DNA of 64,000 nt. Source: Lepidurus packardi. Its lineage: Eukaryota; Arthropoda; Branchiopoda; Notostraca; Triopsidae. The stretch covers positions 3,890,375 through 3,954,374 of the forward strand of contig JAKZAN010000002.1 of assembly GCA_023053545.1 (NCBI GenBank). Reading direction: 5' to 3'. This document shows positions 2,690 through 48,913 of the stretch, piece by piece. Each line of letters begins with the position of its first letter. Position 1 is the first letter of the stretch. The notes under the pieces are model-generated. The model was not told the origin of the DNA. It saw nothing but the letters and a program-made list of their open reading frames with translations, and ran no database searches. The position numbers and the translations under genes were made by a program.

Positions 2690-4399
2690 TTAGATCCAAG
2701 TTTTACATTTGCGCCAACTTGTGGGATATCGTTGGAACAGTTCTTGGATAAATTCTTTCAGCAGCAAGTGATTTTGGTACATTTCCGTAAATTTGCTAGG
2801 ACTTTCCCTTAATTCGTTCATTGTCTTCAAGCCACGATGCACGGCAAAGGCGTTATTTAAGATGGCGAACGAGTAACCCGATATGTGCAACTCACAAATC
2901 TATAATTCGCCATAGAAAAAAATCTTATTTAAGCTAACGATAGCTACAACCTATTAAGTGTTAAGAAATAATATTACCTTTAGAGTATTTTTAAAAAATA
3001 TGATAAAATTGTGGATAAAGTGAATTTTTTTATTTTTACTTGACTAATTCGATCGCCGCCATATTGCTGGAACCGCTCGTCATAAAAGGGCACGTTATTA
3101 GGGCTGATGTAGTACGGCTCCCACTTATCTTGCCAGAGAACTTCTTCAGAAACGTGAAGATGGCTCGCCCACGGATAGTCTAGCCAATTTTGCTGTTTGG
3201 CAGCCTGATTTACCATGTCAGTATGAAACCATTTAACATAAAGTACTGTCAATGATTTATTTATATACTTGGCAAGGCCAGCAATCTTCCTCGTGATATG
3301 ATCTGGCCTTATTTCCTGCAATCGTCTCTAGCAATTTATTTTTCGTGGCAGGTAGAGCTAAACCCCGCCTCATTTCGAATACTGGCACGACGTAAACGGT
3401 TGGATACGACGGAATCCGATTCCGCAGCGTTTCTGCAATGAATTTGACGAAATGACGCCGAAGTCCGTTGGAAGTCACGAAATCTACGTCGATGACCATG
3501 ACGTATTCCGTTATAACAGCTTCGCGTGCCACGTTGCGTAAGAGGTTGATAGGATAGGGGACTTGTAACGCAAAGTGGTTGTAAGTTTCCGCCAGATTGA
3601 GCCGAGGTCCCCCCTTGTCAGGGTCGTTGGGCTGGAAGTACTTACAAGGCAGGAGTTCTGCGTGCACTTTATCGGTGACTATGGAGATATTCGAAGGAAA
3701 TACGAGGTGAAAAGAGACGAAGCGACGGATCACTGCAAAACAGTGCCGTAAACTAACGATTTCCTGGAGCGGCTGCATTAGGTTATCATCCACATGGAAT
3801 ACGGTTATCGATATTGGGCCCTGGGAACCGGTTTTTTCGTTTCAGACGTTGTTATTGGAGACCTTTTCAAACACACGAGCACTTTTACCTGCCATCGATG
3901 TGTCAAAGCAATGAGATCTCGAAGGCTGGCAAGCGAGCATTGAACAGCCAGAGTTACGTCCGCATAACTTGTGTTGTTACCGACGTCGTAGTAACGAACG
4001 TACCCTTCAGCCTTTAGTACATTGCTAGCGACTCGGTAATGACCAGTCATATCCCAATAACTGTGATGTTGAATCACCTTTATGGCGGATCGCATTTCAG
4101 CCAACCCGTCGAAATCCTGGGCAAGTTTTTGTAAAAAATAAATACAAATAAAAAAATACATATCGGGAAGAGGTTTCAAAACTTACGTCTTTTAGCTCCG
4201 CCTCTCGTAATGGTTGACACGGGTCTGAGACATAATTATAGAAATCCTGCTTAGCGGTAATAGGGGGGTATTGTTGTTGAAGGGGATAAGCTGATAAGAT
4301 GAAGAATCCCAATCCAATCAGAAAAATGCCGCTGCTTAGTGCTGCATTTCTAGGCCGCATAACCGTAACAAAAAGGCGTCTTAGTTTAACAACGACCAT
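2690..4399 (-). CDS. Beta-1,4-glucuronyltransferase 1-like protein, copy A (455 aa)
   Basis: Glycosyltransferase family 49 enzyme of the B4GAT1 type. In animals B4GAT1 adds glucuronic acid to xylose on O-mannosyl glycans, priming extension by LARGE; it is a Golgi type II membrane protein. Exons, read 5' to 3': 4399-4187, 4116-3889, 3820-3269, 3204-3040, 2899-2690. All four introns (64-140 bp) are phase 0 with GT-AG ends. A membrane span covers residues about 23-40. The metal-binding DxD is DVD at 258-260 in VMVIDVDFV. Later family blocks are [44 protein letters not shown] and LNNAFAVHRG. The last 45 residues diverge from the paralogue at 7082-5361, and the usual RNR-containing C-terminal block is not recognisable. 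Exon structure matches that paralogue, so the pair arose by tandem duplication. An orthologous role is inferred. Confidence 0.88.
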
Positions 4400-5360: not shown

Positions 5361-7082
5361 TCAGTAACACCGGCGCGAGGAATCCGCGTACTTTTCCTTC
5401 AAGTCTTGTTTGAATTGACGATACAAGATGCGATTCCTTTCCAAATCTGCGTCTTTGTATGCATGGAAACCTGCTGAGCGCTTAAAACCTTGATGGACGA
5501 GGAAAGCGTCGTTTAAGACGGCAAACTTGTAGCCAGCCACGTGTACTTCGCAAAGCTGAAAAAGAGAAGATAAGTACACAATCAAAGAAAACTTTTGTTA
5601 TTGGTTTTATATGGAAATTCTTATTACCTGGCTAATGCGGTTAAAGCCGTATTGTTGAAACCGCTCGTCATAAAACGGGACGTCATTGCGGCTAATGTAA
5701 AAGGGCTCCCACGGATCTTTCCAGAGGACTTCAAACAAAACGCGTAACTTGTTCGCCCACGGCTCTTTCTGCCAAGCTGGGTAATCAGTTTGCGACTGGA
5801 AAAGTGAATAAAAACTTGTGAGTAGGCGCATTAGCCTTGGCATTAATATCACGGAATTGTTTGCTCCCAGCCAATTCTTAACAAAAGTAGGACAAAAACA
5901 AGGGAGGTGGGTTGGGGGGTTTGAACCCACTCAAAAATCTTCGTGGATCGTTAAAGGATTTACTTGGCACTTCCAACATAATTCTGCGTAGAAAGGTCGC
6001 GCATCTTGCTTCGCAATTTGGGCTAGTAGCTCGTTTTTATTGGCGGGTACGTGCTGACCTTGCCGCATCTCAAACGCGGGTATGACGTAAACCGTCTGCT
6101 GATCGCTACTGCCATCAAATAACTTGTTCTGGCGGGCGAAATGCAAAAACTTCAGGCGAAGTTGTAGCGAAGGTAGCATATCAATATCTAGCACTAACAC
6201 GTAGGTCGTAAAAACGGCTTTACGAGCTTCGTTACGCAAGAGGTTGTTAGGATAGGGCAGTTTCAGAGCGTAATTGCTCACTTGAGTTGCGTTTGACCGC
6301 TGAGTATGCGAGTTGGGATCTTCAAAGTGCGAACAAGGCAACAAACTTGGAGGATGGATGCTGTTCACCGTTAAGGACGAGGAAGTTAAGGGGTAAATGA
6401 GATGGAAGGACACGAACTGCCGCACTAAAGGATGGCAGTACCGCAAGCTGATGATTTCTTGGAGTGATTGGCTCAGATCTGATCCTGTGGGAAACACAGC
6501 CACGGATATAGGACCCTGCAAGGAAAGAAAACTTGATAAGGTTTTTTTTTTCTTTATAATGTATTATCATTGTGCAGTACAAGTTGTATACCTTCCAACG
6601 ATGAGATAAGGCTATGAGATGGTAAAGTTTAGCTAAGGAGCACTGAGAAACGAGAGTTATATCCTCAAAAGGCTTGCTGGACAGGTACCGGGGGATGAAA
6701 CGAGAGTATTGTGTGGCAGAAGCCACGAATTTGGCTATCTTGTAATGGCCAGACGTGTCCAAGACGCTTTGTTTGAGTAGCACGTCCATTGCAGAGATCA
6801 TTTCATTGGTCCAATCATCTTCCTGTGGATAGTTATATAAGCGTTAACTTATTCAAACGCTTCAAAAGTTGGCGTAAAGATTACTTGCTCTGGATCCGTG
6901 TCTTCTAAGGGCATGTTGGAAAGGCTTTTTTCATAGTTTTCGGCTGCTGTAAGTAATTGAAGTTGACGGGGTTTGCTTATGTGTCGGCTTTCCAGCTTGT
7001 TGAGCATAATCAGATGAATTATCTGCAGGACCAGTAGCAACGTGACCAATAATGTTATGATTTTCCTCCACAGCGACGCCAT
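5361..7082 (-). CDS. Beta-1,4-glucuronyltransferase 1-like protein, copy B (447 aa)
   Basis: Second family-49 glycosyltransferase of the B4GAT1 type, and the more typical of the two. Exons, 5' to 3': 7082-6885, 6822-6592, 6515-5964, 5795-5628, 5555-5361. All introns (62-168 bp) are phase 0, at the same protein positions as in the copy at 4399-2690; exon 3 is exactly 552 nt in both. A membrane span lies at residues about 8-27. The metal-binding DxD is DID at 253-255 in [11 protein letters not shown]. Conserved blocks are [68 protein letters not shown] and [11 protein letters not shown], ending in SSRRCY like vertebrate B4GAT1 C-termini. It probably works with a LARGE-type enzyme on O-mannosyl glycans. 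Product and fold are well supported; exact acceptor specificity is inferred. Confidence 0.92.
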
Positions 7083-7765: not shown

Positions 7766-8560
7766 CTCGTAGACACAAGAACGACTCGACAATAGAAGCC
7801 TTTTCCAGCGACGGTTCAATTGTGCGTTGTGCCGTCACAATTGTTTACATGTTCGTCGCTGGAACAGAACTGTGCGGCACAATGTTTGCGTTTCTCAGAC
7901 ATTTGTTGTTGTGTGCCAGCAAAAGCGCTGGAACAACTGGACGCACAGTCCAAGGCCCAGTCGCTGGAACAAGATTGCGCGGCACAAAAAGCACGCACAA
8001 AAACGCTGGAACAGCTTGTTCCTTGCACAATCGTGGCACAGCACAATTGAACCGTCGCTGGAAAAGGCTTTAGGACTACGCTGTACCGGACGAAAGGACT
8101 ACGGACCCCGACTTAAGAACTGCAAGTACCTACTTAAGGGCTGCGCCCCGGCAGAAGGACTTCGGTTCCATAATCTTTGTAGGGACAAATAGCATTTCGA
8201 GTTCTCACTGGTTAAGCGCCAACGAGATTTAAAGACCCCGGCTTAAGGATTACGAACCACGACGTAAGGACTATGAACCACGACTTAAGGACAACAAAAG
8301 CCTTACCTAGACCGAACCAAGTCCTGACCTTACTTACCCTAGTTCTAACCAAACTAACCTAACATAGCCTTTAAGTCGGGGTTTGTAATCCTTAAGTCGG
8401 GGCTTGTAGTCTTTAAGTCGGGGATCATAAACCTTAAGTCGGGAGTCTTTTAATCTCTTTGGGGCTTAACCAATGAGAAGAGACTTTTTGAACACGAAAT
8501 GCTATTGGTCCATTGAAAGATTTATGGAGCCAAAGTCCTTTTGTCGGGGTCGGTAGTCCT
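7766..8560. mobile_element. Foldback element with AAGGACTA/TTAAGTCGGGG arms
   Basis: Left-arm sequence between about 8070 and 8300 carries repeated CGACTTAAGGACTA-type units. The right side, about 8360-8560, carries their reverse complements, CCTTAAGTCGGGG-type units. Between them is a short core with AACCTAA-like repeats (about 8320-8375). The left edge, near 7766 (ACACAAGAACGACTCGACAA), matches the edge of the element at 22971-23290, so both belong to one family. A smaller inverted-repeat element sits inside the left arm at 7798-8068. No transposase is present, so it is non-autonomous. Confidence 0.7.
7798..8068. mobile_element. MITE-like element with about 28-bp terminal inverted repeats
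   Basis: The ends are reverse complements: the left begins GCCTTTTCCAGCGACGGTTC and the right ends in the complement of that block, with similarity continuing further in (CAATTGTGC and beyond). Length is 271 bp. The interior repeats CGCTGGAACA several times. No transposase frame is present. Several overlapping open frames exist here only because the repeated motif lacks stops. It lies within a larger foldback element. Confidence 0.8.
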
Positions 8561-8947: not shown

Positions 8948-11900
8948 TTAGTAGCGTCTTCTTTTTTTTTCAGACCTAGCACGGACTCGAAAGGAAACTG
9001 TGCTCGGTGCATTGATGTCCTCTTTGGTTAACGTAGGACTTTCGATAGCAGGTGGTGGTGGAAATACTGAGAGACTGGGAACCCATAGCCACTTGGCTGT
9101 TGTTGTCTCCGTTCCTGTTGCTAACCCTTGTCCTCCGTTTTGCAGTTGGCTTCCAGGAAGTGTTGGACCTGCGGTGGTGCTGGGAGTGACATTGGTACTG
9201 GTATCGGTGTTGGTATTGGTCCCACTACTCGAAAGCGATGGTCGGATAGGTTTTTTAAGCCCGGTTAATTTAACATTTGTTAACGATGTTCTAATAGGTC
9301 TCTTTGCGAATGAAACTCTCTTTGGTTTCTGGGTGCCTAAATGAAATTATTTGTATTTCATGTCATAAACATTTAGACAGATGTAGCATACTTTGACTTG
9401 TACTTGGAGTTCTTATCATAAGTCCTCGAATTTTGTCACGTCTTGCTTGTTTCTCCTTCCTGATGGCATCTTGAACCGCAGGATTGACAGCCTCGGGCTT
9501 CTTTACGTTTGGAACCGGATTGATTGGCTGGTTTAGCGTTGGTATCAGACTGGTATCTTTGGAGTTGTCTGTCTGCCGTTTGATCTTCAATGACTGTTTT
9601 GTCAATACAGTATCCCGTCGTTTGAGCCTACAAATATATTCTTCATAAATATTACTCAAGCTTAGGTCTTCCTCATAGGGGCTTAAGTCGTACTGGTACC
9701 CTTCGTTGTCTATAACTCCGAATGGTTCTTCAGGATTTCGTTTTCTACGTTGGGTTGGTACTCGATTTTCATTCTTGGTCGCAGGTACCGGATTTGGTTT
9801 AGGTGCAGGTACTGGATTTGGTTTAGATAGATGTACCGGATTTTTATTCTTGGCCACAGATACCGTAGTTTGAGTTTTGGGCATAGGTAGCGGAGTTTGA
9901 GTTTTGGGCGTAAGTACCGAATTTGGTTTAGGTGCAGGTACTGTTTTAGGTGGTGGAGACTTTGTGTGAGATGCATTCAGTTTGCGAGGTGTACCTTTAC
10001 TTTTCTTTGAATTGTTCCTTAAGTTGGTCGCTTTTTTAGCTGGTTTGCCGATAGCATGAACCTCCCTTCGTTTTCGGTCTAATCCTGTAAGAACGAAAGT
10101 AACTTTAACGGGTTATGTTGTCTTCAGCTGACACTCACTTGGAGTGCTAGCTACTGTAGTTGGGCTTGGTGCAGTAGTCGTAGTAGTAGTAGTGACAACT
10201 ACAGTAGTTTGCGCAATTGTACTTGGTGTTGCAGTAGTTTGCTGAGTTGTAGTTGCTTGAGTTGTAGTTGGTTGAGTTGTAGTGGTGCTCTGTGCAGCAA
10301 CAGCTTTAGCTTTTGCCTTCTGGACTCTTTTCCTGCCTAATGGGCGAAGAAGAATCATTGTAATAGGTTAATGTTAAAACCAAAGTATTCTGGTTTACGA
10401 TTAATACGACGTCTTTGAACTCGTGTTCGAGGAGGGGGTTTCCTCTGCTTAGCCTTGACGGAAGTAGCATTAGGTAGTTGAAGTTGTTCGCTTATGGCAT
10501 TTAAAGCATTTGCCGTATTCTCCTTGGCTTGTTGAGCTTTGGTACGCCGTCTCTTGGGCTTCAGATCAGTCGTTTCGCGTCTGACCCTCCTGTTGATTTG
10601 CACGGGTTTTTTAACTTGTTGGCTTTCACCTGAAACATAAAAGTCCATCGTTTTATACCCCCAATAAATTAAAACACTTTGAATGTTACTTGGGTTCAAA
10701 TTGCGTCTTAGTTCAAAGCGATTGGGTGGTATCTGCTGTTTTCGTGGTACTTCAATTTTAGTTCTTGGATGTAGAGGGGAAGGGTCAAATCTGTGAGGTA
10801 ATGGACCACTATTGCTTGATTGTGGTCGCACGGCATTATTAGGTCTATTTATATGTCCTCTTGTGCTTCGAGCGTGTCTTTTACCTAAAAGGCATATTAT
10901 TAAGCTGAAACCTAAAACGTAAGTTAATGCTTTCATTGGCACCTGTAAGAGGTTTTCGTAATGGGTGTACTAACGAGTCAACCTTTCTCGACCTTGCCAA
11001 ATCTTGCTCAAACTCTGGAGAAATATTTCCTAGTTCTGGTTCTTCTTGCACTTGTGCTTCTGGTACTTTTGGTAATTCTGGTACTACTACATATGGTTCT
11101 CCTGGTACTTCTGGTATTTGATTTGGAACTTGGTCTTTTTTGTCAGGTTTTCTCGGTCCGAGCGCAGATTTCGATTTCCAAACTTTAGTTCGGCGTCCTT
11201 TGTTCTTGAAATTGTCCTTTCGGCCCCTGGATTGCCTGTTTCTTAGCAATACTTCATCAACTAGTTGATCCTCTAAAAAAAAAATTAACAAGCCTGTATT
11301 TAATGTTGGAATAAAGCCTTACTTCGACTGAGATGCCCTTTTTCTCGTTCCAACACTTCTGGTTGGGATGCTTTGACATCAGAATACACATACCGTCGGA
11401 TACGCCGATGCGGTATCACCTTAGACGGGGGAGCAGGCTTGTTTGGTTGGGGTTTGGGTTGGAGTTGCATAGGTCTGGGGTTAAACCCTTTTCTTGGCTG
11501 TGGCTGGATGAGTTTGCCGGTTTGAGGATTGCCAGAATCTTGTGGCCGAGTGAAGACCCTTCGCCGGACTCGCGCTTGGGCTAGACAAAGAATATAACAA
11601 AATGTGTGTGAAATCAGATATTAATCATATATTCACCATGCCCTACCTGCAGGAGAGCTAAAGAAGTTTTTTAGCTGTGGTGATCTTGAGGTACCCGGGC
11701 CCGGCTTGGGTGCAACTTTATTCGGTCCAGCAGGGATTGGTTTCGTGCCAGTACCTAGCTCAGTCTTGCCTTTTGGGGTTCCAGGCTTTGGAACGGTAGG
11801 AACCTTCTCTTTGGCTCGGGCTTGTCTCTCTCCTGATTTGTTACCGCGTCTTTTCGACTGTGATTTCGGTGACTGTCGTTTGGTCCTGGGCGATGCAAGT

Positions 11901-14587
11901 CTGGATTGATCTTTGCGTAATAAATAAGTCAAAAATGGTCACAATATTTAGTATATTCAATACAGTACAAGACGTATTTCTCGAAGGTATTACTTTGATC
12001 GAGATCGACTTCGTCATCCCCTACAGTAATAGGCAAATTAGACTCACCTAGTACAGCGTTTGGCTCCGAGTCGTCGAATTCAAGACTTCTTCTGTAACGC
12101 CGGAATGCTACCATGCGTAGTACAGAAGATTTAGGTCAATATCGAGCGGTACATTGTGCATTTTACCTGTAGGGCGTATAGCCGGATGAACTGCCCATAG
12201 AGGACGTGCACCACCACATCTTGGCTTGGGCTCGTCATTATCTGAAGTACCAGGAGCTCTGTTGCGTGGCTGCACTTTCACCTGTGAGCGTTTAGTCTTT
12301 GAGTTGGTAGATGTCTCTGCCCTGGACGCCCGTTTTTCTGAGCCAGACTCGGTTTGTTGTTTTGGGGACTTTGTTGTTTTTGAATCCGACGCCTGCCGTC
12401 TAACTCTCTTGTCGTGGTCTTCTTCTGAAGCAAAAGTCTCACGTACATATCTGTCAAGTATTATTTGGTAAATGTTACTTAATTCGAAATGGTCGGCGTT
12501 GTGACCCGGGTCGCTTGCGAAGTCTGTCTTGTCACTCTCAAGGAATGGCTGCCCAGACTTCCGGTTAACCACTGGAGGTTTGACTGAAGGGATTAGTGGA
12601 ACAGCCACAGGAACTTGGCCACAGTCAGACATGATTGGCTCTTCTAGTTCTTCGTACAAGACACTTCTTCTGTTACGCGTTCCTCTACGGATGGATGAGG
12701 ATTTGGGGGAAAAATTCTTTTTGTTTGAGCCTCTTCTTGACGGTAATTCGTCAAAGCTACGAAGCACTGCAGTAGGAACTATTGCTTGATCAGATGGCGC
12801 TGTCTCAGTTGTCCCTTGGTTTGAGCTACGCGGCGCTGTCGTTAGAAGGTCAGGAAGATCCTGACTCAAGATGGGTATTGGAGTACTTATCTCCACTTGC
12901 GGGAAAATAGGTGCAGGATAGTCTAGTTTCGTAAGAAACAAGATTGTACCAACTTTGATGGGCTCATCCTGCACATCTCTTAAGCCAGGAGGTATATTTG
13001 GCGACGTTAGGTTCTTGTCCGTACCGGAACTTTCATCGGTTGGTAGGATATCCGCGTCTGGTACCGGCAAAAGGATAGCGGAGCGCAATTCTGCCTCACT
13101 GGAAGACTTCTGGCGCTGCTTTCTGGAACCTTTGTTTAACCGTCTATAATGTCTGTGCGGATCCTTCTGGTAGTCGACCACTTCAACGTACGGCCGCCTA
13201 GACCGTGCTAAATTTCCACGATCGTTGAATTTATGTAAGTCTGTGTTCCTCTTGGGCCAGGTCAGTATTTGATCCTCACGCTTTTGTCGTTTCCCACGAC
13301 TTTCCGTGTCGTCATTGAGCCAGCGGAAGGTATTAAGATCTGGCATGGCTTCCATGTTCAGCTTCAGTCGGATTTTCGTCTTTTCGCCTTCTTTGTTCAA
13401 GGCAGGCAGTTTCAGAGACTCTCGTACGATCTTCATGACAGGCCAGGTACCTTCCCCACATACATTTGTGGCGTCGTCCAGGTCAGCGTCCATGACAGCG
13501 ATTCCTCCGACCCGCGCGCTAACTTTCTGGATGAGCTTGGGAATGCCTTTGACGCTAGCGAAAGCTATCACTTGTTGATTGTCTGCAGAGCGGATAGTGG
13601 AAAATACGGCGCTGGGTTTGATAAAATTAGTTGGGGAGGATTGCCAACCTGGTGTGAGAAGCGTTTTGCAGATCTTGGGCCGGGAAACTCCGCCCAGGGC
13701 GAGCACGTAACGTCCCGTAGGGGAATCTTGCCGCCACGAAGTACCACCGATCTTCATTCCGACGCTAAGTTGAGCGCTTGTAAATCCTGTCTTCAACCAA
13801 GGCTCTATTTTGGCCAAAACTTGCCGTTCTTCCAACTCGGGAGTGATGGAAGGTTTGGCCGAGGGGAGTACATGGACGTGGTCGATCTTGAGCGCGGCCA
13901 GGGCAGCAGTCGGACCAAAATAGTCTTTAACAGTGAGACTAGTGATCAGTTGGAATGGAGCGAAAATGGGTTGGAAAGCAGAGAAGAGTTGGGTCAAGAC
14001 TTTAGTGGCATTTTGAGACGGCTCTGGCTCGTAGGCCAAATCAATACCGTCCGTGTGGACCGCAACAAGCAGTCGAGCTAACTGAGTGGCGACCTGGGTG
14101 TAAACGTCCGGTTTCTGGAGCATCGTTTGCACGTTCAGGGAATCGATGCCCAGAATCAATTGCAGGTCAGGATTGACAATCTTCAGCGCGACCAGTTTCG
14201 CCAAACGAGGCGTATTGATGTCAATACGAGGGCCGTTGGATTCCTGCACGATCGTTTGGACTGCGTTAACCACGACCCTGGTGCAGAGAAAAGGATCCAA
14301 GTCATCGATATCTGAAAAGGAAGGAAATACATCTAGAATAGTTACAATCCCAAGAAAAATTCGACGATTTTTTTTTCAATTTTTAATGTTGATTTTTTAG
14401 ATTTATGATGTGATTTGATCAGAACGCCCAATTTTTTTTTTTTGTGTTTTGGTAAGTTTTGATTTTTTTAGGCTTCCTTACTTTGGGCGGGTCCGAAGTA
14501 ACACGTTAAATTAGGGACAGAGACTACGACACGTACCCACGTCATCATCACCAATAAAACTATCGGGAACAATTGAAATTGCCCCAT
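8948..14587 (-). CDS. Secreted GH18 chitinase-like protein with long, multiply cleavable basic tail (about 1,627 aa)
   Basis: No recognised named gene. Exons, 5' to 3': 14587-14482, 14311-12167, 12107-12048, 12020-11994 (27 nt), 11910-11647, 11580-11323, 11272-10943, 10884-10690, 10629-10399, 10336-10139, 10084-9404, 9336-8948. All 11 introns (57-170 bp) are phase 1 with GT-AG ends. Residues 1-23 are a signal peptide. Residues about 24-335 follow the GH18 plan: LTCYFG, then IDDLDPFLCT, DGIDLAYE at 123-130, VGMKIGGTSW, ICKTLLTPGW, and a C-terminal VMDADLDD-CGEG block. In the catalytic DxxDxDxE motif the third Asp is Ala128 while Glu130 remains, so hydrolysis is probably lost; sugar binding may persist. 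The tail has R-x-[KR]-R sites after residues 584, 674, 757, 930, 1146 and 1387, a Thr-rich mucin-like exon, PVPAPKPN-type repeats and two LSNIY motifs (646-650, 1414-1418). Where the last exon ends is uncertain. Confidence 0.8.
9765..9950 (-). repeat. Coding repeat encoding PVPAPKPN-like units
   Basis: Within the second-last exon of the GH18-like gene, units of about 8-9 codons repeat imperfectly, giving peptides such as TVPAPKPNS, PLPMPKTQT, PVHLSKPN and PVPAPKPN. The Pro-Lys-Asn rich repeats suggest an extended, possibly matrix- or polyanion-binding stretch; that role is inference. Confidence 0.7.
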
Positions 14588-15237
14588 TTTGGGGATTTTG
14601 AACTTTTTAATTAAGCAAGTTGGAACTTTTTCGGCGCAAAAAAAATTTCTTCTCAAGCTAGCGAGCAGAAATGAGGGTCGAGATGCCCTTGAGGCCCTTT
14701 TGTACCATAAAATTTGCTCGGGTTCGCAAATTAAGACGGCGGCTCTTAGACACGTCTGGAGCATTGCATATCGTCCGAAACCAATTCGCTTGGAGATGTC
14801 AAAAACACATCTGACCTTTCAAAAGCTACAGTGTAGGCAGAAATTTCTTTCCCAATTGCTTACACTTGGTAAGTACGTTTTCCTAAGTTTATAACTTCCA
14901 CGAATGGGAGAATCTGTTGATTCTCATTTTTCTGTTGAATATGTTGATAATTTTCTTATTTATTTTTAGCCTGCCACATGTGTTTGGGTTATTTTCTACG
15001 TTTCTTGTAAAACTTTTAAGCCTCTGCAATCTTATCGACGCTAGGGAAGTTTCCCTAATCTGCAAACGGCTCGATAAGATAAACAGTGAAAAGTCGAGGG
15101 GATATGAGACGAGCTGAATAGTCAATAGGTCTGGTCTCATTTGAGTCTCATTTGCATTCAGACTTCGTGAAAAGTGCTTGGAAAGAACAGTCTTAAAAGC
15201 CAAGACAGAGAAAGAGAGAAAGATCGAGGCGGGAAAA
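14588..15237. promoter_or_regulatory. Shared divergent promoter region
   Basis: The GH18-like gene starts at 14587 on the minus strand and the phosphonate transaminase at 15238 on the plus strand, leaving 650 bp for both promoters and 5' untranslated regions. I see no convincing TATA box for either gene. Co-regulation is possible but not shown. Confidence 0.4.
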
Positions 15238-17618
15238 ATGAGTTCGGTCCTAGAATCTCGAGGTATAATTTTTTTTTTCTCCGACGTCAAATCCGATAGA
15301 GGGACTTTTAACTTAACTGTGACTCGAAATTGGCCCTGTTTTTTGGCCAATTTTATTCAGTTTTTTTATTACTTTTTCTTTTCATCCATTTTGCTTTCAC
15401 AGGAGTCCAGAAAAAGTTGTTCACGCCAGGTCCTTTGCTATGCAGTGACACCGTCAAAGGAGCAATGTTGCGTGACTTGGGATCACGTGACGTGGAATGT
15501 GTGCAAGCCGTCGAGTTTGTCCGCTCCAAGTTGCTGGAAATCGCAGGTAATCTATATTTCCCCGACTCTCTCTATATTTCTTGGCATATGTTAATGTACG
15601 AGCTACCTGCACGTACTTCCCTCTGCTATATGTTACCTACCCAGTTTTCAGGTCAAACTTATTTTCTGCCAAGACCCCCCTCTTGCCATTTAATTGCCCT
15701 CTTGTATGGTTAGGCGTGGATGCCGCGGAGTTTACGGCTATTCCAGTGCAAGGTAGTGGCACGTACGCAGTCGAAGCCACGATACAAACTGTCACGTCTA
15801 GAGCTACGGGACAAAAAGTACTATAAAATAGATATAAATAAAACTTTTTTCTGTAAAAGCCAAGTTTTTAACTCCGTTTCAAACTCCTTAAAATCCTATA
15901 AAAAGGTTTTGGTCCTGGCTAACGGAGCCTATGGTAAACGCATGCAAAGCATATGTGAGATTGCAGGCATTGAGAACGAGATGATGACCTTTCCGGAATA
16001 CTCTTACGTTCAATTGGCTCAGGTTAGTGGTTATCTTCAAGGTTCCTTTTCTTTTCTTTTTGCAAAACTTCACCAAAGTTGTTGAGAAAGAAAAGAGGAA
16101 GATGAGGAAGATAAAGAAGTTTCTACGCTTAATGACCAAGATCCTTATCAAAAAGGTGGAAGAAACGCTGCAGAGACATCAAGCGCTGGGAAATAAACTG
16201 AGTGCGGTCGCGGTAGTGCACCACGAGACGACTAGTGGGATTGTGAATGATATCGAAGGCATTGGAAGATTAATTCATCGCTACCAGCCCCAAGCGTTCT
16301 TTATTGTGGATGCCATGAGTAGCTTTGGAGCAGTGCCTATCAATATGCAAGAAGCTCGCATTGATTTCTTGGCGTTTTCCTCCAATAAGTGCTTGCAAGG
16401 CGTTCCGGGTTTGGGCTTCGTTATCTGCCGCCGAGAGGATTTGCTGGCTTGCAAAGGTAAAGCTGACTTGAAAGCAAAAATAAGAATAAAAAGCCGACAA
16501 TTTAGTTCCGCTTTATTCAATTCTGATTTCCATTTCTTTCTTTTTTTTTGTTTGCTGCGTTTCCTACTTAATTTGATTCAGTTCTTAATGTGTTTTAGTT
16601 CACCTTAACTCAGTTTATAGTCTTTTATTCCATTTATTCCAGTTAGTTTTTCCTTACTTTATTGATTTGAAATTTATTTCAATGTTATTTTATTTTATTT
16701 TACATTTGTAGGGAATTGTCGAGTTTCGAGTCCGATCTGGTTGAGCAATTCCAAGATTGCCAGTAATTTCTTGTTGTACTTTAGTTCGTTTTAATTCAGT
16801 TTATATTATTTTATTGTATTTATTACGCGTTGTTTAATTTTCTTCCGATGTTGAAATCTCAATCAAATCTTTTGAGATCTTTCGATCTCTCCTATTTGAT
16901 TTCATCTGATTTTGTTTTATTTTCTAGGGAATAGTCGAGTTTTGACTCTCGATTTGGTTCAGCAATTCCAACTCTTGGATGAAACTGGACAATTCCGGTT
17001 CACGCCCCCAACGCATGTTTTATTGGCCATGCAGCAAGCTATAAGGGAACTCGAAGACGAAGGAGGGATTGCTAGTCGTGCCAAACGGTGAAAAAAACGA
17101 CGACAGATTAGAAAACGATATTAACTAATTATGACTTTTTGTGAGGAAGGTGAAGCTTGATTGTTAATCAACGTTTTTTATTTACATATTTAAAAATGGT
17201 AGTTATAAAGCCAATTATGCGGTTGTGCAATCCGGGATGAAGGTGCTCGGCTTCAAAGAATTATTGCCGGATGGCTTACCCGAAAAGGGTTACATTATTA
17301 CCTCTTTCCATTATCCCGCGCATCCTAAATTCAATTTCGACGAGTTTTATCAAAGGTTGAGCGAAAAAGGTAATCTATATCTTGGAGCTAAGAGATTGAG
17401 ACAAAGGGAATCAGAGAGAGTGAAGAGTATTTTCAAATTTATTATTTAATTCTCATCCAACTTTCACAGGCCAATTGATATACCAGGGAAAAGTGACTTC
17501 TGTGGATAGCTTCCGAATTGGCAATATTGGACATTTGTTCCCAAAGGACATGGAAACTTTAGTGGATTTCATTCGTCAAGTCCTGGATGACATGCAAGTT
17601 ACGCTTTCTCGATCTTAA
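15238..17618 (+). CDS. 2-aminoethylphosphonate--pyruvate transaminase (393 aa)
   Basis: PLP-dependent class V aminotransferase that, in its family, converts 2-aminoethylphosphonate plus pyruvate to phosphonoacetaldehyde plus alanine. Exons: 15238-15262, 15403-15546, 15714-15817, 15906-16022, 16141-16456, 16928-17087, 17203-17369, 17470-17618; phases join throughout. The short first exon gives MSSVLESR and runs into [19 protein letters not shown], the family N-terminus. Further family blocks are [38 protein letters not shown] (cofactor Asp187), [11 protein letters not shown] (cofactor Lys213), [10 protein letters not shown] and [10 protein letters not shown]. Length is slightly above the bacterial norm (about 370). 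No organelle leader is evident. The exon 5 acceptor ([10 protein letters not shown]) is the least certain junction. It is a full spliced nuclear gene, not bacterial contamination. The intron before exon 6 carries a decayed copy of that exon's start. AATAAA at 17666 is the likely poly(A) signal. Confidence 0.93.
16593..16978 (+). repeat. Intragenic tandem duplication in the transaminase gene
   Basis: Two adjacent, diverged units (about 16593-16778 and 16779-16978). Each begins with a TTTAGTTC...CAGTTTATA stretch, continues through T-rich sequence, and ends with TAGGGAATNGTCGAGTTT followed by a GANTTGGTT-AGCAATTCCAA-like block. The second unit includes the real start of exon 6; the first holds a broken copy. 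Confidence 0.75.
16712..16762 (+). pseudogene. Decayed duplicate of transaminase exon 6 start
   Basis: After an intact-looking TAG acceptor, GGAATTGTCGAGTTT and the following bases match the beginning of the true exon at 16928, but a one-base loss shifts the frame and the match stops after about 50 bp. It cannot encode the conserved [13 protein letters not shown]-type block, so it is an exon relic within the intron. Confidence 0.75.
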
Positions 17619-46000: not shown

Positions 46001-48913
46001 GTCAGTGTAAACTGTAGTGTGTTAGTTAGTTTAGGCAGATACAAAAGAGACACCCCAAAGACCAAAGTCCAGTCCGAGATGATGGATAGATGAGAAAATG
46101 TTAGCACCCTTCCAGGAACGTTTCATTAACTGACTTCCAAGACAGTTTAAGACAGCTCAGGTTTGAAGGAAATTGAATCTACTGTATATGGAAAACTCGT
46201 TCCATTTCTATGGATGGAAGTTGCTTTTCAGCTTCGTTTTCGCTTATGTGTCCATCCCTGTTGGTTCGTGTCGCTGTTGACAAGCTTTAACCTTTGCCAG
46301 TCTGTCGGGATGATAATAAATCTTATCAGCGAACGCTTTAGCTGTTCTATGTCCTCTGTTGTGCAAGAAAGGCGAATCAGCGAAAGTTTTAGCCCAACTG
46401 CCTTATTTTCTCTACGGCAGCGGTTCTCAAACTATGGGCCGCGGCGCCCTTGGTACACCGCGGTAGGCTTGCAGGGGCGCCGCGAAAGATTCCAACAATT
46501 GCATAGATGCAACAATTATATAGCCCTATGTTCTAAGGGGCGCCGCGCGAATTGTGTGTTGACACACAAACTCGCTCGTATAGTCTTTACCAAATTCGCT
46601 CCACCATTTTACGTATGTTTTCTACAAAGCGCTTTCCTTACATACATAGAAAACGTGCGTAAAATGGTAGATTTCGCCCATTCTTGCTGCTAGGAAGCCA
46701 ATTTGGTAAAGACTATATGTGGTAGAATAAACAACTTCAATGAAGCAAAAATTTACCATGTAAATGGCGCGACATTTGTGTCACCGATGTAACAAAATGT
46801 CGATGCGAAATGCGTAAGAGTAGGACTGATGTCAATAGACAACCAACGTAGGACGACAGGCATAAAGTGTCCACCGAGCTTATACTAGTGGTTCCCTTTT
46901 TTAAGGAGAGACGAGTTTTATAGTAAGAGAGGGTAGCGAAGGAATCTTGGAAAGAACCAACAACGAACAAGGAGAAAAGAAATTCGAGGTGATAAATGAC
47001 TGGCAAGCTTTGCGAAGCTGTGGGTTGAGTTAGTCAACGACTGTTTCTCAAATCTCGCTAGCTTTCCTGTTCCTGTTAAGATTTTGGTGGTCCTTTCACT
47101 GTCCCCTTGTCACAGGGTTTTTGGATTAGGAAGCGGGCCATCTTTTTTAAAAGGGAAGACATCCAAGGATGTATTTAGAAAAGCGTAGCTCCACACACAT
47201 ATACACACATGACATACCATGAAATGGGCAAGTCATGTCGTAAATTAGTTAGAGGACACCATGCAGCGACATTTTTATTTTTTTGGTTTCTGTCTGTGCA
47301 AGGCTGCGGCTGTATTAGGAGGCGGTGGCGTGCGTCACATATTTAACTTATTATATACGTACCACAAACCATTGCCTTTTATATCTGTAATGTGTTTTTA
47401 CTTTTTCCCCGGTTGGCGGGACAGCAGAAATTATTGTGTATGGGTTAAAGCAGGGAGAAAAACATTCTTGAAACTTTTTTTTGCCCATCTTCTTTCTTCA
47501 TCTTCTGGCGGCCGTTGCCAGGTTTCGGGCCCGGGTCCCGGGGATAGGCTTTTATACTTAACTGAGCCCAAAGCTTCCGCACTGTCAAGTCTAATGTGAC
47601 TGTATATCTGACGTCTTTTTTTCCTAGTTTACTCATTTCTTTGCTTTTTCTACTTTGGCAGACGGCGGAAGAACGATGTGTTTTGTCCTTGGAGACCAAC
47701 TCGGGCGCCTTGCGCGTTTTGGCCGTCAATGGTAAAGGCTTGCTAGCCTTATACCGCCCGGAAATGGAAGACGCCACCGTGACATCACTCGGCGAGTCCA
47801 CCACGATGCCTGCCGCTAGTAATAACCCCTTTCTGAGAGGCGATTCCGTCCAGGAGACTCGGGAATCGGGCCAAGATCTGACTCAGTCGCTAGAAGCTAC
47901 TCCCCAGGTAAGCCATTTTTTTTTTCATTATGAAGTTTTATTTTCTTTGATTTCCACCGCGCTATTCCTTGCTGCTACATTTCTTTTTTTTTTTTAAGTG
48001 TCGAGCTTTCCCGCCCTTTTTTGCTGGATTTGTCTCTTTTTTCTGACTGAATAGCTTTAATGATCGCGCGTTCTTTGTGTTATAGTGGAAACTACGCGAA
48101 GTGTCGCTCATTCACCAGAAAGTGTTGGTCATCGCTGAAATCGCCTGGCCGTCTCAACAAGCCTTGAACGGCGAAGCAGCCGACTACTTAGTGACGTGGG
48201 AAGTCGATGGCGGTGGACTCAAAGGCCACCTGTATACAGATGCGACATCTGTGACGCTTTCTCTGTGGCCTGATACGGTCTATCATATTCAGGTAGAGTT
48301 GGTGACTGGGGCGGATACAGTTCAAATGCGGAGCGCTTCACTGAGCATCGATACCCATAAAGCTCCGGTAGTCACGGCCGAGGAACGCGTGTACCCAGCA
48401 GCGCCTTTGGTTGACCGCATGCAGCCCGAAAGTTCCCGGCGACTCGAGGCCACCGTTGGGGTTGGAGCCGCTGCAGGTGTGTGCTGTTTTCTAATGGTGA
48501 TTGGCGTGGCTATTGGCGTTCGCAGACAGCGGCGTTTACGTCGTTCGACCTCGTTATCCTCCCTCGTTTCAGTCAGTTCAAGCAAACTCGAGTCGTTGGC
48601 AAGACGGGATAGTTTAACGGTGGCCGGAGACGCACCCAGCAACGTGCATTTGATTCAAGTAGTGACGTCCGCCAAGCATGAAACGATGCCTGCGATGAAC
48701 ACGAGTCCTTTATGGGGATTACGACCCAAACCTATTGCCAGTCCACAACAAGTATCAGCCATGTCCCAGACTGGAGCAGGAGCAGCGGTAGTTATAGCAA
48801 AGCCGATGCAAGTTACCTCAACTCAAGCTTGGCCGATGTTGCCTAGGCGATCCGAGCTCATTTTAAGTCCAGCATTGTATAGTCAAAATTCTGGACGCCG
48901 TGATGAAGCGTAG
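28041..48913 (+). CDS. Type I membrane protein with Cys-rich N-terminus and two fibronectin-III-like domains (532 aa)
   Basis: Exons: 28041-28181, 36180-36236, 37719-37793, 41350-41601, 47662-47907, 48086-48913. All five introns (8.0, 1.5, 3.6, 6.1 and 0.18 kb) are phase 0. Residues about 1-25 are a signal peptide. Residues about 38-100 form a Cys-rich region spread over four exons, with CRAQC, CQQEPDC, CWENC, VC, SIC and CSQAC pairs. Residues about 105-215 resemble a fibronectin-III domain (RWTW, IVYVVIQ, LRVLAVNGKG). Residues about 258-350 form a second (WPSQQ, YLVTWEV, TVYHIQVEL). A span at 380-402 is followed by RRQRRLRR and a Ser-rich cytoplasmic tail. A Cys-rich front followed by FN3 domains recalls anosmin-1, but no WAP signature is seen and anosmin is not transmembrane, so I do not name it. 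A receptor or adhesion role is inferred. Additional exons within the long introns are possible. Confidence 0.8.
28800..29045 (+). repeat. A-rich degenerate simple repeat in intron 1
   Basis: Repeating AAGTTAAA, AAAATAAG and GGAAAAGTTA words fill about 240 bp. It is low-complexity DNA with no coding content. Confidence 0.6.
32123..32484. mobile_element. Long-arm foldback MITE in intron 1
   Basis: The arm at about 32123-32250 is matched by the reverse complement at 32334-32484 over more than 120 bp with small gaps. Shared blocks include ATTCTAAACA-CAACCCACGAATG, GTGACTGCCATT, GTGCAG, GCTTTCCT and TTGTAGAGGG. A central spacer of about 80 bp has no coding frame. As intronic RNA it would form a long hairpin. 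Confidence 0.85.
34614..34690 (+). repeat. Dispersed GACGTCA/GCATGC family, copy 3
   Basis: Carries GACACGCCCGTGACGTCATG, GATGCGCATAGCTCGAGAAC and GGCTAATCAC in family order, within intron 1 of the membrane protein gene. Confidence 0.65.
35291..35675 (+). repeat. Tandem duplication of about 200 bp in intron 1
   Basis: Units at about 35291-35495 and 35496-35675 share ATATCTTCTT, CTTTGATAGCCT, TACTTTTCG, ACATT-TTC, GCGTGCAAGTGTCG-like and GGTTGTGTTGTTA. The first contains AAGATGGCGGC, the YY1-type recognition sequence; in the second the equivalent site is changed (AAACTGGCGGC). Confidence 0.75.
38111..38371 (+). CDS. Possible alternative terminal exon of the membrane protein gene
   Basis: After a possible acceptor (CTCTGTGGACAG), 86 codons are open to a TAG in the same phase 0 as every other exon of this gene, right after the third Cys-rich exon. 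The peptide is basic with four Cys. Joining it would give a short secreted Cys-rich isoform without the FN3 domains or membrane span. An open frame this long can occur by chance, and no homologue is recognised. Confidence 0.2.
   Translation, partial: LFSVSWAQNIYVWSKAFKKECRKFDVACPPIWNEIADKCRLPNLPLVLLANPRAFKKRKCPCKWLVKREYPLPKLLINYRFQSNSK
40120..40215 (+). repeat. Dispersed GACGTCA/GCATGC family, copy 4
   Basis: Carries GCGCCCGTAACCCACGCC, GGTCCGTGACGTTA, AGTGCGAATAAGTCTTGAAC and GCCCAATC, in family order. Confidence 0.65.
40289..40420 (+). repeat. Palindromic stretch plus dispersed family copy 5
   Basis: About 40289-40330 has interleaved palindromes (CCACCTG...CAGGTG, GTACAGTATATGC). It is followed by GTCACGAAACAAAGTTT, AATGCGAATAGCTCTTGAAC and CGCGAATTAG of the dispersed family. 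Sequence after both this copy and the one at 40120 continues with TTGGAACAAAGTG-AACTT and CCAGAC, so the two are direct repeats of each other. Confidence 0.6.
41153..41185. repeat. Perfect 15-bp hairpin
   Basis: TTTGAACTCTTACAA and TTGTAAGAGTTCAAA flank an AGC loop, in intron 3 of the membrane protein gene. Role unknown. Confidence 0.85.
42845..42935 (+). repeat. Dispersed GACGTCA/GCATGC family, copy 6 (best example)
   Basis: Contains GCGCTCTAAGCCGCGCCATG, GGCACGGTCGTACGTCATGA and CTTTGCATGCGAATAACTCC followed by TGAACGGTAT. Across eight copies the order is a GCGCC-GTAACCCACG block, a GACACGTCCGTGACGTCA block, a 10-25 bp spacer, then TTTGCATGCGAATAACTC and TGAACGGCTAATC. It looks like a non-coding mobile element; ends and target duplications are not resolved. 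Confidence 0.7.
46418..46550 (+). mobile_element. hAT-like element fragment
   Basis: CAGCGGTTCTCAAACTATGG followed by GCCGCGGCGCCCTTGG matches the terminal-repeat style of Charlie-type hAT transposons (CAGNGGTTCTCAAAC). No matching opposite end is found before 46740, so this is a truncated or rearranged, non-autonomous copy in intron 4. Confidence 0.6.
46581..46714. repeat. Inverted repeat next to the hAT-like fragment
   Basis: TAGTCTTTACCAAATTCG...CCATTTTACG-ATGTTTTCTA at 46581-46624 is mirrored at 46647-46714, with a small extra insert in the right arm. It may be part of the same mobile element as 46418-46550. Confidence 0.75.

Follow-up and report, generated by a model that had tools for sequence, protein, structure and literature searches.

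A degenerate GH18 domain joined to a long basic tail with convertase-type sites near exon starts in Lepidurus packardi

A gene of the notostracan Lepidurus packardi was analysed in a 64,000-nucleotide stretch of genomic DNA, hereafter the window (C2:3890375-3954374 of an assembly of 108.6 Mb in 344 contigs), in which it lies on the minus strand from 14587 to 8948. The gene is one spliced open chain, and its product carries a degenerate GH18 head followed by a tail with no recognised domain, with an excess of convertase-type basic sites, with a bias of these sites toward exon starts, and with blocks of charge. From the sequence we propose, giving the proposal an even chance, that the product would be a secreted precursor of exon modules, which convertases process into charged disordered segments and in which the chitinase-derived head is non-enzymatic. 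The original prediction, made from the letters of the DNA, had described a GH18-like, lectin-like head fused to a multiply cleavable basic tail; the observation was confirmed, and its interpretation was partly supported.

Results

Gene model and coding capacity

The spliced model consists of 11 exons and ten GT-AG introns of 50-170 nt, all in phase 1 (10/10), and encodes a product of 1,618 residues. Its ATG at 14587 and its stop at 8948 agree exactly with the ends given in the original prediction, and it replaces the 12 exons and 1,627 residues proposed there. The 12-exon model was not reproduced, as the extra micro-exon in the 137-nt intron 3 needs a 27-nt intron, which was judged too short. 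Two alternatives keep the frame: use of a later donor in exon 3, adding 18 residues (1,636 in total), and retention of intron 7, adding 20 residues (1,638 in total). The start at 14587 was preferred because a signal-peptide-like stretch, judged by eye (residues 1-24, MGQFQLFPIVLLVMMTWVRVVVSV), then comes first, and because its context (CCCAAAATGGGG) is stronger by the usual Kozak rule than that of a second in-frame ATG upstream at 14764. From this start and this stretch, secretion of the product would be expected.

For a chance test of the tail, the best spliced open chain between the end of exon 2 and the stop codon was scored. A score of 2120, with 8 introns and 2,760 coding bases, was obtained for the real sequence; the 11-exon model has nine introns in the scored region, of which the optimum omits one, probably intron 7. 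Any chain at all was obtained in 24 of 300 dinucleotide shuffles, the best scoring 493, and none of the 300 came near the real score. No chain was obtained from any of 28 control stretches of the window, which were unscreened for genes; for controls and shuffles alike, a single starting frame was used. The ten tail-bearing exons are spanned by about 1,240 stop-free codons in consistent phase, and the head and the first 378 tail residues share one open frame inside exon 2. The locus is one real gene.

These results bear on the view that the tail is not functional protein, the gene being a degenerate GH18 gene and the predicted tail exons being non-coding or part of another gene. Such a view would accommodate the synonymous codon use of the tail, which is not coding-like, and the lack of tail homologues in searches of the own genome, of Pfam and, for residues 373-783, of PDB, but it conflicts with the long chain in consistent phase, with the shuffles and controls, and with the joining of head and tail in exon 2, and we regard it as highly improbable.

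The GH18-derived head

Pfam family PF00704 matched residues 27-270 with 30.3 bits against a cut-off of 29.6 (E 4.3e-7), a narrow pass. The best PDB match of the head was the insect chitinase OfChtIV (E 9.5e-8), the next was chitotriosidase (E 5.6e-7), and IDGF-2 matched weakly (E 0.046). No match for the head was obtained in NCBIfam, a bacterial and archaeal library, and the head was absent from the 66 rows of an exon-wise genome scan with the GH18 family. A search of the own genome with the head gave seven rows besides itself, the best at 9.6e-6, and all of them fell in or beside GH18 matches. As judged from these matches and from alignment, residues 24-372 are a degenerate GH18 domain. The GH18 origin of the head was thus borne out, together with a signal-peptide-like stretch as far as the eye can judge it.

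The head was aligned with three GH18 paralogues of the same genome (L001-L003, out of eight loci fetched). The strand end with GGW is gone from the head by deletion of the region, MTYD is gone, and a Met stands at the beta-8 position where the paralogues have the Trp of MVWDI. The catalytic motif reads DGIDLAYE versus DGLDLDWE, DxDxE having become DxAxE by replacement of Asp with Ala while Glu is kept. The DxxDxDxE motif is carried by 3/3 aligned paralogues and not by the head, a control that is partly built in because the paralogue frames were chosen by the loose motif DG.D..E, so that only the other motifs serve as an independent control. Four signatures are described for insect chitinases and chitinase-like proteins in an excerpt of PMC3097210: KXXXXXGGW, FDGXDLDWEYP, MXYDXXG and GXXXWXXDXD. 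None of the four was found in the head, compared with three in each of L001 and L002 and two in L003, which is cut by a stop. The strict form of GXXXWXXDXD also fails in L001 and L002, in which the aligned Trp is kept.

Since GGW, DxDxE, MxYD and the beta-8 Trp are all lost, the head is very unlikely to act as a chitinase. Sugar is held in GH18 proteins and chitolectins by GGW, MxYD and stacking aromatics, for example the beta-8 Trp. The sugar-stacking aromatics that mark a chitolectin were not retained in the head by sequence alignment, and it is probably not an ordinary chitin lectin. The description of the head as lectin-like is weakened, because most of the GH18 sugar-holding residues are gone.

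Besides this gene, GH18 genes that carry the active-type motif are clustered at C4:2963402-2979580 of the assembly. One of the matches there contains TAG, and L001 and L002, both in this cluster, have Thr-rich C-terminal ends.

Composition and relatives of the tail

The tail, counted from residue 373, is 1,246 residues long, shorter than the 1,290 first proposed and still very long. It is composed of 11.7% Pro, 10.4% Arg, 9.1% Lys, 8.7% Thr and 8.4% Ser (S+T 17% vs K+R 19.5%), has a net charge of +130, and contains 3 Cys among its 1,246 residues. A Pfam search of three overlapping pieces that together cover the tail gave no family above cut-off and no chitin-binding family, which agrees with the claim of a long basic tail lacking recognised domains; a PDB search with its first 411 residues (373-783) gave no match. 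When the own genome was searched with residues 373-1212 and 1263-1618, leaving the Thr-rich residues 1213-1262 out of the query, only this locus was found among the best candidates, which were scored; the second row (6.4e-7) corresponds to exon 3 and the last part of exon 2 of the same gene, and not to a second copy. No relative was found among viral contigs, and of 50 stretches of genome contigs that fit a pattern none was confirmed by tblastn; as the collections hold viruses and prokaryotes, these negatives say little about arthropods.

By its low hydropathy and its net charge the tail falls on the disordered side of the charge-hydropathy line, and we infer from composition that it is intrinsically disordered. 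Charge is arranged in blocks: its variance in windows of 10-50 residues was 1.6-2.3 times that of shuffled tails, a level reached by 0/2000 shuffles at each of four widths. Short degenerate tandem repeats are present in exons 6, 9 and 10. The best internal pair of segments, residues 619-682 (end of exon 2) and 1378-1440 (second half of exon 10), shares LSNIY followed by basic sites, and this weak similarity is possibly the remnant of a duplicated cassette; the pair was reached by 2/200 shuffles with 76 pairs tried, and an internal repeat is not claimed.

Convertase-type sites and exon starts

The pattern RX[KR]R occurs 14 times in the tail, compared with a mean of 2.6 after shuffling (0/5000 reaching 14), and is absent from the head. 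Local shuffling within windows of 12, 20 and 30 residues, which largely keeps charge clustering, gave means of 5.5, 4.8 and 4.1, and 14 was reached by 2, 3 and 0 of 3000 shuffles, respectively. Under the same local shuffling [KR]R was found 46 times vs 31-34 (reached by 18, 6 and 4 of 3000) and all [KR][KR] pairs were more weakly enriched, with 69 vs 56-60 (158, 100 and 28 of 3000), whereas [KR]K was not enriched (23 vs 25-26). Enrichment of Arg-ending pairs and not of [KR]K agrees with what is predicted for convertase sites and not with simple basic clustering. The many cleavage-type sites originally noted in the tail therefore exceed local composition too, and specifically in the Arg-ending pairs.

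Among exons 3-11, RX[KR]R lies within the first 12 residues in 5/9 (rotation mean 0.84, fraction reaching 0.0012) and [KR]R in 7/9 (rotation mean 2.3, fraction 0.0023), all of these values being indicative. The share of Lys and Arg was 34% in the first 12 residues of the exons, compared with 21% overall, and exon ends had 23%. A mixture of Arg codons is used at exon starts (AGA 9, CGA 6, AGG 4, CGG 3, CGT 1 and CGC 1), so that purine-rich splicing enhancers do not readily explain the whole of the bias, though they may contribute to it.

These distributions have to be set against the possibility that the tail is never cut, and acts whole as the long cationic disordered polymer of a matrix or glue protein that binds acidic glycans or proteins, the basic pairs being by-products of charge. 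A loosely constrained disordered chain of this kind would fit the charge of +130, the charge blocks and the lack of codon bias, as well as three stretches of 176, 216 and 200 residues without an internal RX[KR]R. It would not lead one to expect RX[KR]R and [KR]R in excess of shuffles that preserve charge clustering while [KR]K is not, nor the concentration of sites at exon starts. We consider an uncut polymer unlikely, though the strongest of the rivals.

Cleavage of the tail is instead suggested by its sites. Cutting at all 14 of them is predicted to give 15 pieces of 3-216 residues, 12 net basic and 3 net acidic (585-674, 758-782 and 1379-1418). Proprotein-convertase P domains gave 8 matches at E <= 0.001 in the assembly, two of them on contig C44, which may be bacterial. 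If the pieces themselves were active, the gene could encode a precursor of antimicrobial or signalling peptides that the head directs or carries, for example to fungal or parasite surfaces. The many sites, the basic, Pro/Arg/Lys-rich composition and several strongly basic pieces of 56-109 residues would suit such a precursor. The pieces are, however, not clear repeats of one another by the pair test above, G[KR][KR], the amidation-type pattern, shows no enrichment (4 vs 1.9; reached by 315 of 3000 shuffles), PRP occurs once, and the head is without the usual sugar-holding residues. A bioactive peptide precursor is accordingly rated as improbable, below the uncut polymer.

Features of the locus and other elements

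The features of the gene and of its flanks are listed in Table 1. The scan for neighbouring domains covered 10 of the 112 listed open reading frames (ORFs) of the window; the two Glyco_transf_49 stretches are probably neighbouring paralogues.

Table 1. Coordinates of exons, candidate sites and flanking genes in the window
Feature	Position	Strand	Remarks
Exon 1 (residues 1-36, ending in a split codon): start codon, signal-peptide-like stretch and first GH18 strand	14482..14587	-	donor AAA/GTAAGG
Exon 2: remaining GH18-like head (to about residue 372) and first 378 tail residues	12167..14311	-	Pfam PF00704
GH18-like domain within exon 2, degenerate, residues 37-372	13302..14309	-	Pfam and PDB matches, alignment
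RGKRQKR, first convertase-type sites, just past the head, residues 374-380	13278..13298	-	
RNRR site ahead of an acidic block, residues 581-584	12666..12677	-	
RVRR site, residues 671-674	12396..12407	-	
Exon 3: short cassette, opens AFRRYRR	12048..12107	-	extension to 11994 possible through a later donor at 11993
RYRR site at start of exon 3, residues 754-757	12088..12099	-	11-exon model
Exon 4: RTKR at exon residues 9-12, then basic Pro/Lys-rich cassette	11647..11910	-	
Exon 5: opens AQARVRRR; second site RIRR	11323..11580	-	
Exon 6: no RX[KR]R; acidic Pro/Val/Glu block	10943..11272	-	
Exon 7: opens GKRHARS; no RX[KR]R	10690..10884	-	followed by retainable intron 7
Exon 8: RVRR at exon residues 15-18	10399..10629	-	
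Exon 9: opens RRKR, then Thr-rich stretch	10139..10336	-	
Exon 10: opens RLDRKRRE; RRKR and RLKR bound acidic LSNIY segment	9404..10084	-	
Degenerate 24-nt tandem repeat in exon 10	9781-9941		
Acidic segment, residues 1379-1414, with bounding RRKR and RLKR	9618..9749	-	11-exon model
Exon 11: final coding exon, without RX[KR]R; EKKRRRY precedes stop	8948..9336	-	
Class-V aminotransferase stretch (PF00266)	ORF 16027-16608	+	flanks gene on one side; E 6.8e-19
Two Glyco_transf_49 (dystroglycan-type glycosyltransferase) stretches	3257-3793, 5931-6521	-	other flank of gene; Pfam scan

Elsewhere in the window, a 270-aa open frame at 48101-48913 on the plus strand gave a fibronectin type III match below threshold (19.5 vs 25 bits). 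At 7796-8070 lies a 275-nt element with perfect inverted ends of 30 nt, for which at least 8 near-full-length genome copies were found at 96-100% identity, the window copy included (40 of 49 candidates scored). Halves of this element are also paired about 3 kb apart in the genome, as if it were an internally deleted derivative of a longer DNA transposon. Positions 8086-8522, immediately downstream of the gene, are dense in short direct and inverted repeats with CTTAAG and GTCGGGG units. In the assembly as a whole, COX1-like pieces with stops that are mainly TGA occur on C1, C2, C4, C5, C6, C21 and C38 and are likely mitochondrial insertions, while stop-free frames of the COX1 family occur on C43, C52 and C214, which may be bacterial contigs. 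TTAGG arrays gave 79 exact 30-nt matches, mostly on contig C86; these arrays, like the TGA-interrupted COX1-like pieces, which lie on the large contigs, would fit an arthropod.

Discussion

Evaluation of the precursor model

The evidence altogether leads us to favour a secreted, single-copy, convertase-processed precursor with a non-enzymatic head. The head would be a GH18 domain which, with its catalytic residues and the main residues for holding sugar lost, acts as a folded scaffold and not as an enzyme, a role like that proposed for insect IDGFs. Behind it would lie a disordered, charge-segregated chain assembled from phase-1 (1-1) exons, of which several begin with a furin-type site. In the secretory pathway, convertases may divide this chain into as many as 15 pieces, most of them basic and a few acidic, and the released pieces may assemble in or coat an extracellular matrix, for example the cuticle or the peritrophic matrix. 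As all introns share phase 1, the gain, loss or skipping of an exon could leave the reading frame intact. An extension of the model is that the 1-1 exons, many of them opening with a convertase site of their own, are interchangeable, that splicing and evolution select among oppositely charged disordered segments, and that the segments released by furin assemble into matrix by charge; this extension we hold to be doubtful.

Furin dislikes P, R, Y or V directly after the cut. Several points weigh against the precursor model, beginning with the presence of one of these residues after the cut at 5 of the 14 candidate sites. Exons 6, 7 and 11 are without RX[KR]R, and the test of the exon-start bias followed its discovery in the same data, with four widths tried for each of two patterns, which makes the fractions given above indicative. 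The signal peptide is made less certain by the upstream ATG at 14764, from which 59 more residues would be translated and the hydrophobic stretch would become internal. The matrix role is proposed by analogy, with no direct tie of the protein to cuticle. Finally, the tail (8948-13301) does not look selected in a test of synonymous codons (z -2.3), and higher scores (z 1.3 to 7.2) come from its shifted and antisense frames despite 29-78 stops, whereas the head (13302-14309) is gene-like (z 7.7). Because the training set of this test is small (1,975 codons) and comes mainly from GH18 genes, the result for the tail was read as relaxed constraint and not as absence of coding. Relaxed constraint and a recent origin of the tail are possible explanations of the sharp contrast between head and tail.

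How inactive chitinase-like proteins act is an unsettled question. If the model of a processed precursor is true, a head stripped of its sugar-holding residues and joined to an exon-encoded cleavable tail would point to scaffolding over sugar binding. It would also provide a clear case in which gene architecture matches protein processing, with the cut site near the exon boundary and the introns in a phase that permits shuffling.

Comparison with known systems

OfChtIV and chitotriosidase, the nearest sequence matches of the head, are active chitinases, and the head is without their signature motifs. IDGFs consist of a GH18 domain alone, while a tail of 1,246 residues is added here. Like the head, the IDGFs (group V) are GH18-derived and catalytically inactive and have no C-terminal chitin-binding domain, as described in excerpts of PMC1945033, in which a shift from sugar to protein binding is also suggested for IDGF2. 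For Drosophila Idgfs, a structural and non-enzymatic role in the cuticle matrix was proposed (excerpt of PMC4738247). The catalytic Glu is replaced by Gln in IDGFs (excerpts of PMC1945033), whereas the head keeps Glu and has the neighbouring Asp changed to Ala. The Glu-to-Gln exchange of group V was thus not found in the head.

Precursors processed by convertases into multiple segments are known among neuropeptide, antimicrobial and matrix types. Common features with the present product are a signal-peptide-like start and many RX[KR]R sites; the product differs from them in that no repeated or amidated product was found, several pieces are long, and a folded GH18 head is predicted to precede the tail.

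A chitin-binding domain has six Cys, twice the number in the whole tail. Insect Cht6 (group VI) shares the N-terminal GH18 domain and the long C-terminal region of low complexity; excerpts of PMC9933517 describe it with a catalytic domain, with one or two chitin-binding domains and with an S/T-rich tail, and in these points it differs. Neither the chitin-binding domain nor the S/T-rich tail was found in the present product, in which a head inactive by motif is joined to a K/R/P-rich tail with 3 Cys. The statement that no protein of this shape had been described must then be narrowed, since long tails of GH18 proteins are on record in Cht6, and it holds in so far as those tails differ. Among the papers listed from the open-licence literature, at the level of titles and abstracts, none was found in which a cleavable basic tail follows an inactive GH18 head, which does not prove absence. 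Since long GH18 tails are already known, this gene stands apart by other traits: its head is dead, no binding module was found, its tail is basic in composition, and convertase-type sites lie at exon starts.

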